DNA of 64,000 nucleotides from Dehalococcoidia bacterium (lineage in GTDB: Bacteria > Chloroflexota > Dehalococcoidia > SM23-28-2 > HRBIN24), in assembly GCA_025062275.1 (NCBI GenBank), contig JANXAP010000018.1, positions 62,001 to 126,000 on the forward strand, given 5' to 3'. Below are positions 28,774 to 63,742 of this stretch, in pieces; positions within the stretch are counted from its first letter, which is position 1, and every line of letters starts with the position of its first letter. A program made the translations under genes and the position numbers. A model generated the notes under the pieces. That model saw only the letters and a list, made by a program, of their open reading frames with translations. It ran no database searches and was not told the origin of the DNA.

Positions 28774-31227
28774 TCAGCGCTCCGCGCCCCCCACGGCCAC
28801 CGCCTTCTTCTCGAAGACGTACTCCCCGTCCCTGTAGTCCACCAGCACCGTGTCCCCCTCCTGGAACTCCCCGGCCAGGATCTTGAGGGACAGGGGGTTG
28901 GCGATGCGCCGCTCGATGGTGCGGCGCAGGGGACGGGCGCCGAACTGGGGGTCGTAGCCCTCGCGCACCAGGGCCGCCTTGGCCTCCTCCGTCAGCTCCA
29001 GCCCCAGCCCCCGCTCCGACAGCCGCTCCCGCAGGTCCTTCAGCATCAGCTCCACGATCTTCTTCAGGTCATCCTCGGTGAGCGGGTCGAAGATGATGAT
29101 CTCATCGATGCGGTTCAGCAGCTCGGGGCGGAAGGCCTGGCGCAGCGCCCGCTCCACCGACTCCCGCAACCGCTCCCGCTCGCTCTGGCTGGGCTTGGCA
29201 TGGGCCAGGAAGCCCACCGGCGGCCGCTGCAGCTCGGCCGTGCCCAGGTTGGAGGTCATGATGATAATGGTGTTGCGGAAGTCCACCGTCCGCCCGTGAC
29301 CGTCGGTCAGGCGGCCGTCCTCCAGCACCTGGAGGAGCAGGTTGAAGACGTCGGGGTGGGCCTTCTCGATCTCGTCGAAGAGGACGACGCTGTAGGGGCG
29401 GCGGCGGACCGCCTCCGTGAGCTGGCCCCCCTCCTCGTAGCCCACGTAGCCGGGCGGGGCGCCGATGAGCCGTGAGACGGTGTGCTGCTCCTGGTACTCG
29501 CTCATGTCGATGCGCACCATGGCCTCCTCGTCGTCGAAGAGGAACTCGGCCAGGGCTCGCGCCAGCTCCGTCTTGCCCACGCCCGTGGGGCCCAGGAAGA
29601 TGAAGCTCCCAATGGGCCGCTTGGGGTCCTTCAGGCCGGCGCGGGCGCGGCGGATGGCGTTGGCCACCGCTCGCACCGCCTCCTCCTGGTCCACGATGCG
29701 CTGGTGCAGCCGCTCCTCCATGTGCACCAGCTTCTCCTGCTCGCCTTCCATGAGGCGGCCCACGGGTATGCCGGTGGCCTCGGCCACCAGCTCGGCGATG
29801 TCGCGGGCGTCCACCACCAGGTCGATGTGATGCTGGCGGGCCCACTCCTCCCGCTCCTGGGCGAACTCCTGCTCCAGGCGCAGGCGCTGGGCCTTCAGGT
29901 TGGCCGCCCGCTCGTAGTCGCCCTGGCTGGCGGCTGCCTCCTCCTCCCGCTTCAGCCTCTCGATATCCTCCCGCTTCTGGCGGATGTGCTGGGGCAGGCT
30001 CTGGGCCTCGATGACGTGCTTGGAGGCGGCCTCGTCCATTAGATCGATGGCCTTGTCGGGGAGGAAGCGGCCGGAGATGTAGCGGGCCGAGAGCTTGGCC
30101 GCCGCCTCCAGGGCCTCGTCGGTGATCTTGACCTTGTGGTGGGCCTCGTAGCGCGGCCTGAGACCCTTCAGGATCTCGATGGTCTCCTCCACCGACGGCT
30201 CCTCCACCAGTACGGGGGAGAAGCGGCGCTCCAGGGCGGGGTCCGACTCGATGTATTTGCGGTAGTCGTCCAGGGTGGTGGCGCCGATGCAGCGCAGCTC
30301 GCCCCTGGCCAGAGCGGGCTTGAGCATGGTGGAGGCATCGATGGCGCTGCCCTCGGCGGAGCCGGCGCCCACCACCTGGTGTATCTCGTCGATGAAGACG
30401 ATGATCTCGCCCTGGGCCTGCTTGATCTCGTCCAGGACGGCCTTCATGCGCTCCTCGAACTCGCCGCGGAACTTGGAGCCGGCCACCATGGCGGCGATGT
30501 CCAGGGCCAGCACCCGCTTGCCCTTCAGGTTTTCGGGCACGTCGCCCTGGGCGATCTTCTGGGCCAGACCCTCGACGATGGCCGTCTTGCCCACGCCCGG
30601 CTCGCCGATGATGACCGGGTTGTTCTTGGTGCGGCGGTTGAGGATCTGCATGACCCGCTTGATCTCTTCCTCGCGGCCGATGACGGGGTCCAGCTTGCCC
30701 TGGCGGGCGGCCTCGGTGAGGTCGACGGCGTAGCGCTCCAGGGCACGGTAGCGGGCCTCGGCCCGGGGCGAGTCCACCCGGTGGGCGCCGCGAATGTCGG
30801 CCAGGGCGCGGTATATCTTCTCCTTGTCGATGCCGAAGTCGCGCAGGATGCGCGGTGCATCGCCGTCGCGCAGGTCGGCCATGGCCAGCAGCAGGTGGTC
30901 CACGCCGATGTATTCGTCCTTGAGGCGACGGGCCTCGGCGTCGGCGTTCTCCAGCAGGCGCACGACGCGGGGGGTCATGTAGAGCTGGGCGCTCTCGTAG
31001 GTGAGCTTGGGTGTGCGGGCCAGGGCCGCCTCCACCCGCTCGCGCAGGGCGTCCATGTCCACGCCCAGCTTGCGGAAGACGTCCTGGGCCAGGTTGCCCT
31101 GGTGGGCCAGCATGGCCAGGAGGATGTGCTCGGCGTCCCACTGGGCGTGGCGCATGCGCCGGACGATCTGCTGGCTCTCGGCCAGCACCTCCTGTGCCTG
31201 CTCGGTGAACCTGTCCTGCCGCATCAT
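28774..31227 (-). CDS. clpC: Hsp100 ATPase ClpC
   Basis: 817 residues. N-terminal double Clp repeat, first AAA+ with GEPGVGKT near 203, a short middle region containing a UVR-like helix ([17 protein letters not shown]), and second AAA+ with GPTGVGKT near 540. The loop [10 protein letters not shown] carries the VGF tripeptide used to dock onto ClpP, which ClpB disaggregases lack; length also fits ClpC. It therefore probably unfolds proteins for ClpP, although no clpP is in the window. A second Met directly follows the first. Third gene of the dnaJ-hspR-clpC unit. Confidence 0.85.
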
Positions 31228-31265: not shown

Positions 31266-31670
31266 TCACTGCTCTCCCCTCGCCTCGTGCTCTACCCTCG
31301 CAACGCTGTTCTGGGCCGGTGCCGGCAGCAGGCGGTCGCGGTAGGCCTGCAGCTCCCGCCGCAGCTCCTCTATCTGCCGCTCCAGGGCGGCGATGTGCTC
31401 CCGCAGCTTGAGGATGGCCTCGGCGCCGGCCAGGTTGACGCCCAGCTCGTCCATGAGCCGCTGCACCTGGCGCAGGCGCTGGATGTCGGAACGAGAGTAG
31501 AGACGGATGCGCCCCTTGGAGCGGGCCGGCCGGATGATGCCCATGCGCTCGTAGTAGCGCAGGGTCTGCTCGTGCATGCCCACCATGCGGGCGGCCACGC
31601 TGATGACGTAGAGGGGCTCGTCCTCGGGCAGCTCCTCGTCGTCAGTCTGACCGCGCCGACGCCTGGCCAT
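31266..31670 (-). CDS. hspR: HspR heat-shock repressor (MerR family)
   Basis: 134 residues. MerR-type HTH starting PLYVISVAARMVGMHEQTLRYYERMGIIRPARSKGRIRLYS, the HspR wording, then a dimerisation coiled coil (IAALERQIEELRRELQAYRDRL). HspR represses dnaK/clp genes in actinobacteria and related phyla with DnaK as co-repressor. Sits 19 bp after dnaJ and 38 bp before clpC, so it probably regulates its own operon. I found no exact HAIR repeat (CTTGAGT-N7-ACTCAAG) upstream, so its operator here may differ. Confidence 0.9.
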   Translation of the reverse strand: MARRRRGQTDDEELPEDEPLYVISVAARMVGMHEQTLRYYERMGIIRPARSKGRIRLYSRSDIQRLRQVQRLMDELGVNLAGAEAILKLREHIAALERQIEELRRELQAYRDRLLPAPAQNSVARVEHEARGEQ

Positions 31671-31689: not shown

Positions 31690-32703
31690 TCACCTGCGCA
31701 CGGTGGAGCGCCTCAGCTCCCGCAGGCGACGGTATAGCTCCCTCTCCTCCTCCGTCAGGTGCTCGGGCAGCCGCACCTTGACGGTGACGTAGAGGTCGCC
31801 GCGGCCGCTGCCCTCCAGCCTGGGCATGCCCAGGCCCGAGAGGCGGAAGGTGCGGCCGTTCTGGGTCAGGGGCGGCACCTTCAGCAACACCCGCCGGCCG
31901 CTGAGGAGGGGCACCTCCACCTCGCCGCCCAGCACCGCATCCTCTACCGGCACCTCCACCTCGGTGTACAGGTCGTCGCCCTCGCGGCGGAAGCGAGGGT
32001 GAGGCTGGACCGACACCACCAGGTAGAGGTCGCCGCGGGGGCCCCCCATGGGGCCGGGTCGCCCCTCGCCGGCAATGCGTATGCGGGAGCCGTCCCTCAC
32101 CCCCGGCGGTATGCGGACCTCCAGCCGCTTGGGCTGCTCAACGTAGCCGCTGCCCAGGCAGCGGCTGCACACGGCCCCGAAGGCGCCGCCACGGCCCCCG
32201 CAGGCGGGGCAGGCCTCCAGGGAAGGCACCTGGATGACCCGGGTGGTGCCGTTGTAGGCCTCCTCCAGGGTCACCTCGATGGGCGCCTCCATGTTCTGGC
32301 CGCGGGAGGGGCCGCGGCGACGGGTGCCGAAGAAGGTCTCGAACAGGTCACCGAACAGCCCCTCGCCGAAGATGTTGCCCAGGTCGCCGAAGAGGTCCCC
32401 GGTGGACCAGGTGAAGGTGGCGTGGCCCTGAGGGCCGGCCGCCCCCGCCTGGCGGCGGGCCTGCTCGAAGGCGGCCGCCTGCTCCCAGCGCTCGCCGTAC
32501 ATGTCGTAGAGGCGGCGCTTCTCCGGATCCGACAGCACCTCGTAGGCCTTGTTGATCTCCTTGAAGCGCTCCTCGGCCTCCTTGTCGCCCGGGTTCAGGT
32601 CCGGGTGGTACTTGCGGGCCAGGCGACGATAGGCCCGCTTTATCTCCTTCTCGGAGGCGTTGCGAGGGACGCCCAGTATCTCGTAGTAGTCGCGCCCGGG
32701 CAT
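31690..32703 (-). CDS. dnaJ: DnaJ-family co-chaperone with reduced zinc finger
   Basis: 337 residues from ATG 32703 (GTG three codons upstream is less likely). J domain [34 protein letters not shown], with HPD. It continues with a G/F-rich region, then only one zinc centre (CPACGGRG and CSRCLGSG) instead of the four CxxCxGxG repeats of classical DnaJ. The C-terminal substrate domains are complete ([18 protein letters not shown]...). It is thus between DnaJ and CbpA in type. Leads the dnaJ-hspR-clpC operon; dnaK and grpE are elsewhere. Confidence 0.88.
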
Positions 32704-32721
32704 GGCTACCACCCGCTGCCC

Positions 32722-32750: not shown

Positions 32751-32790
32751 CCCGTTGGACGAAAACCTGACAATGACTTTATAAGAGGTC

Positions 32791-32820
32791 TTGACAGGGC
32801 CTCCTGCCCCTCTCTATAAT
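32791..32820 (+). promoter_or_regulatory. Strong consensus promoter of the hsp20 genes
   Basis: TTGACA (32791-32796), 18-bp spacer, TATAAT (32815-32820): both hexamers perfect. Start about 32827 gives a roughly 200-base leader before the first hsp20. That leader has no gene; it is extremely GC-rich and able to fold strongly. Confidence 0.8.
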
Positions 32821-32981
32821 TGGGGGCGGAAGCCGGGGGAGCGCCCCGGCGGATGGCCCGAGGATGGCCGGGGCCAGCGGCCCTGCGCCCCACCTGGGCG
32901 GTGGGGAGGCCTGGGCGGCGGTGCCGAGGTCGCCCCTCGGGGGTGGAGCCGTCAGGGTGCGTGGCCCTGGCCGCCAGCCGA

Positions 32982-33030
32982 GTCTCCTTTCACCGCTCAA
33001 CAGACCGAGGGGGAAAGGAGGTGATGGGCC
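32982..33030 (+). promoter_or_regulatory. Shine-Dalgarno-sequestering hairpin (RNA thermometer candidate) of hsp20
   Basis: GTCTCCTTTC (32982-32991) pairs with GAAAGGAGGT (33013-33022): eight Watson-Crick plus two G-U pairs. CC/GG and CTC/GAG continue the stem inward around an 8-base loop. The paired strand contains the perfect Shine-Dalgarno AAAGGAGGTGAT (33014-33025), six bases before the ATG. This is the design of heat-opened thermometers in small heat-shock mRNAs (ROSE, fourU types), though the sequence is not either consensus. Confidence 0.65.
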
Positions 33031-33489
33031 ATGACCCTCATGCGCTGGGAGCCGTGGGCTGAGGTGCGGCGCATCGCCCGCGCCATGGACGAGATGATGG
33101 ACGAGCTCTTCGGCCGCCTGCGGCCCTGGCACGGCACCGCCTCCTTCCCGCTGAACGTCTACGAGACGAAGGAGGCGGTGGTGGTGGAGGCGGCCCTGCC
33201 CGGCTTCCGGCCTGAGGACTTCGACATCTCGGTGCAGGACGGCCTCCTGACCATCCGCGCCGAGCGGCGGCCGGAGCGGGAGGAGGAGCACCGCACCTAC
33301 CACTGGCGCGAGCTGGGCTACGGCTCCTTCTACCGCTCCGTCTCCCTGCCGGCGCCCGTGGAGGCCGACCAGGCCGAGGCCATCTATGAGCGGGGCCTGC
33401 TGACCATCACCCTGCCCAAGGCGGCCGAGGCCAGGCCCAGGACCATCCAGGTGCGGGCCCGCGAGGTCGTGGAGGCCAGGGCCTCCTGA
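33031..33489 (+). CDS. Hsp20/alpha-crystallin small heat-shock protein 1
   Basis: 152 residues. Alpha-crystallin domain about 35-130: PLNVYETKEAVVVEAALPGFRPEDFDISVQ, LLTIRAERR, then the GLLTITLPKA motif. Oligomeric holdase that binds unfolding proteins. N-terminal MRWEPWAEVRRIARAMDEMMDELF is shared with the next gene, indicating tandem duplication. Its translation is probably gated by the hairpin covering its Shine-Dalgarno. Divergent from dnaJ-hspR-clpC. Confidence 0.94.
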   Translation: MTLMRWEPWAEVRRIARAMDEMMDELFGRLRPWHGTASFPLNVYETKEAVVVEAALPGFRPEDFDISVQDGLLTIRAERRPEREEEHRTYHWRELGYGSFYRSVSLPAPVEADQAEAIYERGLLTITLPKAAEARPRTIQVRAREVVEARAS

Positions 33490-63169: not shown

Positions 63170-63742
63170 ATGAGGCCCCCGGCCTATGCCCTGCTGGCCC
63201 TGGTGGCAGCGCTGACGCTGATGGTGGCCTGCGGCGGCGAGGAGTCTCCCTCGCCCACACCTCAGGCGGTGGCTGGCATCACACCCGCCGCCTCCTCGCC
63301 CACGCCCACCGCCACCGTCGCCCCCACGCCGACGCCGACACCCACTCCTCCGACCCCATCGCCGACCCCCACTGCCCCGGCTGCCTGTACCGCCCCGGCC
63401 GCCCCCAGCGGCCCTGCGGGCTGGACGCAGAAGGGGCAGGGCTGCGTCATCCTGCAGGTCCCGCCCGGCGGCGAGGTCGCTGTGGACGCCATGCAGCTTT
63501 CGGGCGCCAACATCGGCTGTGCCGGGGCGGGCAGCACCAACGGCTGGCAGGTGTGGCTGCCGCCCGGGGCCAGCGTGAACATTCGAACGGCCGTCTCCAC
63601 TGGCGGCGGGCCCACCACCATCGCCAGCGGCAACAGCGGCACCGCCGGCGGCTACTGCGGCACCATCTTCGTGCAGAATCCGGGATCGGCCACGGTGACG
63701 GTGCACGTCAACTGGAGGATGTGGTGCGCAGCCCCCTGCTGA
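63170..63742 (+). CDS. Lipoprotein with Pro/Thr linker and Cys-rich C-terminal domain
   Basis: 190 residues from ATG 63170 (GGGAGGTG upstream). Lipoprotein signal ending LMVAC (Cys21; Met at -3 is slightly atypical). A low-complexity P/T/S/A linker (about 25-85) resembles that of the deacetylase at 6,123. Then a compact domain with five Cys (about 90-190): GQGCVILQVPPGGEVAVDAMQLSG, GGYCGTIFVQNPG and the end RMWCAAPC. Probably a surface-exposed, disulfide-stabilised beta domain; no family recognised. Confidence 0.75.
   Translation: MRPPAYALLALVAALTLMVACGGEESPSPTPQAVAGITPAASSPTPTATVAPTPTPTPTPPTPSPTPTAPAACTAPAAPSGPAGWTQKGQGCVILQVPPGGEVAVDAMQLSGANIGCAGAGSTNGWQVWLPPGASVNIRTAVSTGGGPTTIASGNSGTAGGYCGTIFVQNPGSATVTVHVNWRMWCAAPC

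Follow-up and report, generated by a model that had tools for sequence, protein, structure and literature searches.

The locus considered here lies within a window of 64,000 nucleotides from a Dehalococcoidia bacterium (contig JANXAP010000018.1) and raises the question of whether translation of a small heat-shock gene, hsp20, may be gated by temperature through the structure of its own messenger. The initial annotation had proposed a single-hairpin RNA thermometer over the Shine-Dalgarno (SD) sequence; the masking of the SD was upheld, whereas the extent was not, as the feature comprises an entire structured leader of approximately 204 nt and is confined to one genus. On the evidence of the predicted folds, masking of the SD in front of hsp20 is real, extreme within the genome and kept in the sole available sister species, HRbin24. 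We favor, with a probability of roughly 0.55 and with the temperature response taken from folding predictions, a model in which the leader is a lineage-specific translational thermometer of a thermophile, acting beneath transcriptional control by HspR.

The features of the locus are collected in Table 1. The promoter had been annotated as a perfect -35/-10 pair, and it is one at all 12 positions; a TTGAC box is also present at nearly all hsp20 loci read in the class. The leader, for which 150 bases had been given, is longer when measured from the presumed transcription start. Its predicted fold combines the small 5′ hairpin, the long GC-rich hairpin and the SD hairpin with a closing helix (leader pairs 29-33 x 200-204), for which a rival local fold appears once more coding sequence enters the prediction. 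Pairing of the start codon varies among predicted folds and between the two species. A repeat or mobile element was rejected as an explanation, the leader DNA not being repeated elsewhere in the genome: a DNA search for further copies returned only the same locus in the two genomes, apart from a short stretch at the start of the second hsp20. A coding leader was likewise rejected, as indels of 2, 1, 2 and 1 nt separate the leaders of the two species.

Table 1. Features of the hsp20 locus, in window coordinates
Feature	Position	Strand	Detail
ClpB-type disaggregase	28774..31227	-	TIGR03346, 1151 bits, under cut-off 1232
hspR, MerR-family heat-shock repressor	31266..31670	-	NF047375 HspR, 117.4 bits, cut-off 105 exceeded
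dnaJ-type co-chaperone, divergent to hsp20	31690..32712	-	
Degenerate HAIR-like (HspR) operator CCTGACA-N7-TATAAGA, upstream of -35	32770..32790	+	9/14 to CTTGATA-N7-TATCAAG
Sigma-70-type promoter TTGACA-18-TATAAT	32791..32820	+	12/12 match
Predicted 5′ leader of hsp20, structured	32827..33030	+	~204 nt, 77% G+C; start inferred from -10 box
Small 5′ leader hairpin	32832..32850	+	pairs identical in HRbin24
Closing helix, 5′ side	32855..32859	+	pairs with 33026-33030 (GGGCC abutting ATG); 5 bp identical in HRbin24
Long GC-rich leader hairpin	32862..32975	+	compensatory changes vs HRbin24
SD-masking hairpin	32982..33022	+	anti-SD arm 32983-32998, loop 32999-33006, SD arm 33007-33021
Shine-Dalgarno AAAGGAGGTGAT	33014..33025	+	perfect complement of own 16S 3′ end (GGATCACCTCCTTTCT)
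hsp20, small heat-shock protein, 152 aa	33031..33489	+	PF00011, E 2.5e-21
Second hsp20, 147 aa	33576..34019	+	PF00011, E 2.4e-22

In the hsp20 leader, GTCTCCTTTC (32982-32991) stands opposite GAAAGGAGGT (33013-33022), and the predicted outer stem spans 9 bp (32983-32991 x 33013-33021), the outermost of which is U-G; a tenth, outermost G-U pair is possible and is absent from the predicted minimum. Inward of this stem follow a bulged A32992, 2 bp (32993-32994 x 33011-33012), a G32995 x G33010 mismatch and 3 bp (32996-32998 x 33007-33009) beneath an 8-nt loop, such that sequence and predicted fold reproduce the hairpin originally described, with its one-base bulge, G-G mismatch and 8-base loop. 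The perfect SD is also as described, although its distance from the ATG at 33031 is 5 nt rather than six bases. Eight of its 12 bases are paired in the predicted hairpin, and the anti-SD arm repeats the 16S 3′ tail (CUCCUUUC). The predicted fold thus contains the general mark of an RNA thermometer, namely an SD and/or start codon paired within the 5′ UTR.

In a G+C-rich genome such as this one structures abound, and the hairpin was therefore set against the genome's own gene starts, drawn by simple gene calling from a 363-kb sample (290 starts for the SD and 266 for opening energy; mean SD opening energy, 5.7 kcal/mol). Among the 290 starts, hsp20 alone carries a 12/12 SD. In local context (-55..+20) its SD opening energy is 13.5 kcal/mol at 37 °C, which ranks second of 266 and exceeds that of all others among the 88 genes with an SD of 6 or more; the local-context rank slips to 9/266 at 70 °C, and extending the context to -100..+20 makes the masking stand out less (9/266 at 37 °C, 27/266 at 70 °C). 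The most telling feature is that the strongest SD is hidden within one of the strongest masks. The leader together with the first codons folds better than its shuffles (z -2.65), as does the homologous leader of HRbin24 (z -3.37), and when the leader bases before a fixed SD were shuffled, only 2 of 1000 sequences masked the SD equally well. The SD-masking hairpin is not a chance structure.

Conservation was assessed against a single relative, HRbin24, one other species of the genus, whose leader is 79% identical at the DNA level and folds like that of the window. Between the two species, the arms of the SD hairpin differ at no position but the weak outer U-G, so that the pairing is conserved in this one close relative, as the thermometer proposal would have it, while the bulge and loop differ. 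Before the SD, 45 of 180 aligned leader bases are substituted in HRbin24, with changes at 26 of 133 paired sites vs 19 of 47 unpaired sites. When the 45 substitutions were redistributed at random in 300 simulated sequences, 54.9 +/- 2.3 pairs were expected to be kept, against the 62 actually kept in HRbin24; one simulation in 300 did as well, none matched the folding energy of the real leader, and SD masking equal to that of HRbin24 was reached by 5 to 7. Candidate covariation, which the initial annotation had suggested seeking, is present in the upstream long hairpin, where both partners of two pairs (alignment columns 58-128 and 66-118) have been replaced in a compensatory manner and one partner of further pairs compatibly, although the count of two-sided changes is insignificant by itself (reached by 117 of 300 simulations). 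It is absent from the SD stem, where comparison with HRbin24 yields no compensatory change and the core has no substitution at all; for the SD stem, therefore, conservation is claimed and not covariation.

Beyond the genus, the arrangement differs at the 28 further hsp20 loci examined within the class. Wherever a TTGAC box could be located, their predicted leaders measure 13-98 nt, and the SD of these loci opens at a cost of 0-7 kcal/mol at 37 °C, vs 9.3-13.5 kcal/mol in the two species; the loci with short leaders and open SDs include those of a sister genus of the same family (two species, L004 and L005). From these short, open leaders we infer that the long leader was probably acquired recently by one genus. 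The motif CTCCTTT-N8-30-AAAGGAGGTG was sought across 393 genomes of the class and 201 of the phylum; it occurs in 7 of the 393 and in no further genome among the 201 sampled. It precedes hsp20 only in the species of the window and in HRbin24, and was not seen before hsp20 in the five other motif-bearing class genomes. In one class member (G276, L084 about 1501-1545), a CTCCTTT...AAAGGAGGTG hairpin lies ahead of a gene whose translation, judged by eye, resembles an ammonium transporter, providing a second masked SD that is not associated with heat shock.

The predicted response to temperature is steep, opening of the SD growing approximately 20-fold with each 10 °C from 55 to 75 °C, with absolute melting placed above 85 °C; folding energies above 37 °C are extrapolations and apply to 1 M NaCl. 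Opening of the hsp20 SD core is predicted to rise 22.9-fold from 55 to 65 °C (rank 1/266), then a further 19.1-fold by 75 °C (rank 2/266), relative to a median of approximately 2-fold per 10 °C over the 266 gene starts. The second hsp20 (ATG 33576), correctly noted earlier to lack a hairpin of this kind, has an SD that is predicted to be less strongly masked and nearly temperature-insensitive, its opening rising 1.9- and 1.6-fold over the same two steps. From 37 to 70 °C the opening energy of hsp20 falls more steeply than that of any other of the 266 genes in local context, and with the -100..+20 context hsp20 stands outside the five steepest. Third in the same genome sample is a lipoprotein-like ORF at 63170 (+), with a signal peptide, a Cys and a Thr/Pro-rich stretch; its SD, too, is predicted to be masked in a steeply temperature-dependent way.

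In absolute terms the isolated hairpin is predicted to be very stable, its open fraction climbing from 7e-5 at 65 °C to 0.8% by 80 °C, and to be largely closed still at 85 °C (1 M NaCl parameters). The duplex between the SD and the 16S anti-SD also weakens with heat (-12.5 kcal/mol at 65 °C), so that the net gain for the ribosome would be below what opening alone suggests. As a rough guide, the opening cost of 4.7-6.4 kcal/mol at 65 °C may be set beside the 5.6-4.8 kcal/mol predicted for Escherichia coli ibpB at 30-37 °C. E. coli ibpA was dropped as an energy yardstick, its predicted opening being flat at approximately 2 kcal/mol, probably because the non-canonical pairs of ROSE elements are not modelled; only ibpB thus served, which makes the calibration weak. 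With melting predicted at so high a temperature, action as a thermometer would be possible only in a thermophile. The G+C content of the organism's own 16S is 63.3%, a value typical for a thermophile, and the host is probably heat-loving. A study of geothermal-stream cultures at 65/70 °C included Chloroflexi MAGs but does not name HRbin24. In ROSE-like (ibpA) leaders of Pseudomonas, the gene stayed locked off at every temperature once pairing of the SD had been made perfect (PMC3669281), so that the design seen at hsp20 is plausible only in a hot-living organism.

Transcription is likely to be the other level of heat control. The HAIR-like repeat of the window, 4 nt from TTGAC, is not significant alone (9/14, shuffle p 0.105); its counterpart in HRbin24 matches at 10/14 (p 0.015), and matches rise to 14/14 in other class members, usually 4 nt before TTGAC. 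CTTGATA-N7-TATCAAG-like repeats occur upstream of hsp20 at L003, L005-L007, L009, L014, L019, L024-L027 and other loci. This distribution of sequence matches suggests a long-lived HspR-hsp20 regulon in the class. As hspR adjoins the locus and HAIR-like repeats recur across the class, heat control of hsp20 via transcription is likely, and the leader would form a second layer. Both genomes also possess two groEL loci (L090-L093), one with groES and one without, bearing CIRCE-like repeats (GAGTGCTAA and an upstream partner); these loci, leaders included, were inspected by eye alone, and the repeats would imply control by HrcA beside HspR.

The favored model, a thermometer beneath HspR, proposes that at normal growth temperature the SD stem bars 30S subunits and translation is low. 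In hotter conditions the stem would be open more often, and the freed SD would be captured at once by ribosomes because it is the strongest possible. HspR, putatively bound at the HAIR-like operator beside the promoter, would separately control transcription, and the GC-rich upstream domain would probably keep the SD hairpin in register and block alternative pairing. More tentatively, and at slightly less than even odds, the leader may represent a high-temperature thermometer of its own type, with a canonical SD/anti-SD stem as the sensor near 65-80 °C, a maximal SD and HspR as a second layer; the length of the SD would let pairing with rRNA still work at 65-80 °C, and so fully canonical a stem would be locked shut in a mesophile. 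If true, this would test whether the rule of “weak, mismatched anti-SD pairing” holds for mesophiles only and in what way the strength of an SD and its masking evolve together as growth temperature changes, and would supply a natural part for gene control at high temperature.

Other explanations account for part of these data. The masked SD could be a constant brake or insulator that lowers Hsp20 or couples it to the state of the mRNA, the hairpin being too stable to respond and HspR exerting all of the heat control. The very high predicted stability even at 75-85 °C is consistent with such a brake, as is the locking of Pseudomonas ibpA leaders by full canonical SD pairing (PMC3669281); further, HspR and the HAIR-like operators constitute a heat control of their own, and the leader is dispensable in relatives. 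However, a stable brake has no need of a 12/12 SD, few genes in the genome have so steep a predicted dependence on temperature, and the opening energy at 65 °C falls within the range predicted for ibpB at 30-37 °C, which makes a constant brake rather unlikely. It is also possible to envisage a factor other than temperature working the leader, either a small molecule or a protein (Hsp20, another RNA-binding chaperone or a cold-shock protein) sensed by the large upstream hairpin, given that the conserved part extends beyond the SD hairpin to the whole leader and that a plain thermometer would not be expected to have so large a 5′ domain. This is distinctly improbable, as no riboswitch or other Rfam family was matched and as conservation resides in paired sites, not in the loops whose bases ligand pockets usually conserve.

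The very stable GC-rich 5′ structure might, alternatively, serve chiefly to protect or stabilize the mRNA at high temperature, with masking of the SD as a by-product; yet equal masking is rare among the leader shuffles, and the SD stem has kept its two arms although neighboring bases changed, so that we give this little credence. Strong predicted structures are common in this genome, as its mean SD opening energy attests, and a functionless chance structure in a G+C-rich leader might be suspected on that ground, but the two folding z-scores, the substitution test on HRbin24 and the rarity of the motif, with its restriction before hsp20 to the two species of the genus, render it very improbable indeed.

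The RNA thermometers of the cited literature are those of mesophiles, opening near 37-42 °C, and a search of the open-access literature aimed at thermophiles found no thermophile RNA thermometer. Control by HspR and HAIR is shared in that hspR adjoins and a HAIR-like repeat precedes the hsp20 promoter; it acts, however, on transcription, and would account for the gene's heat control but not for the leader. An Rfam search at gathering thresholds and at E up to 10 gave no thermometer or riboswitch, only two unrelated snoRNA chance matches, so that the leader is neither ROSE nor fourU, in agreement with the initial annotation, and the sequence marks of both are absent. ROSE elements (Bradyrhizobium japonicum hspA, E. 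coli and Pseudomonas ibpA) resemble it in preceding a small heat-shock gene and in having several hairpins, with the SD in the last and stable hairpin(s) at the 5′ end; in contrast, the hsp20 leader lacks the U(U/C)GCU anti-SD and non-canonical SD-core pairs, its anti-SD being UCUCCUUUC in canonical pairs, and has no Rfam match. The fourU element of Salmonella agsA is likewise an SD hairpin preceding a small heat-shock gene, but sets four consecutive U against the SD, whereas the anti-SD here has UUU only. The Synechocystis hsp17 thermometer (PMC4477652) comes nearer: it too precedes a small heat-shock gene with a single SD hairpin, a canonical anti-SD (UCCU vs AGGA), a bulge or internal loop and an enlarged apical loop (10 nt there vs 8 nt here), and the SD hairpin of hsp20 fits this type, while start-codon pairing differs by predicted fold and species. 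The likeness is one of anatomy, and the differences are that 9 bp are paired at the SD here vs a 4-base SD core there, that a large GC-rich 5′ domain is present, and that the expected working range would be some tens of degrees higher. As predicted, then, the anatomy of the hsp20 leader is closest to that of the Synechocystis hsp17 thermometer, to which a large upstream domain is added.
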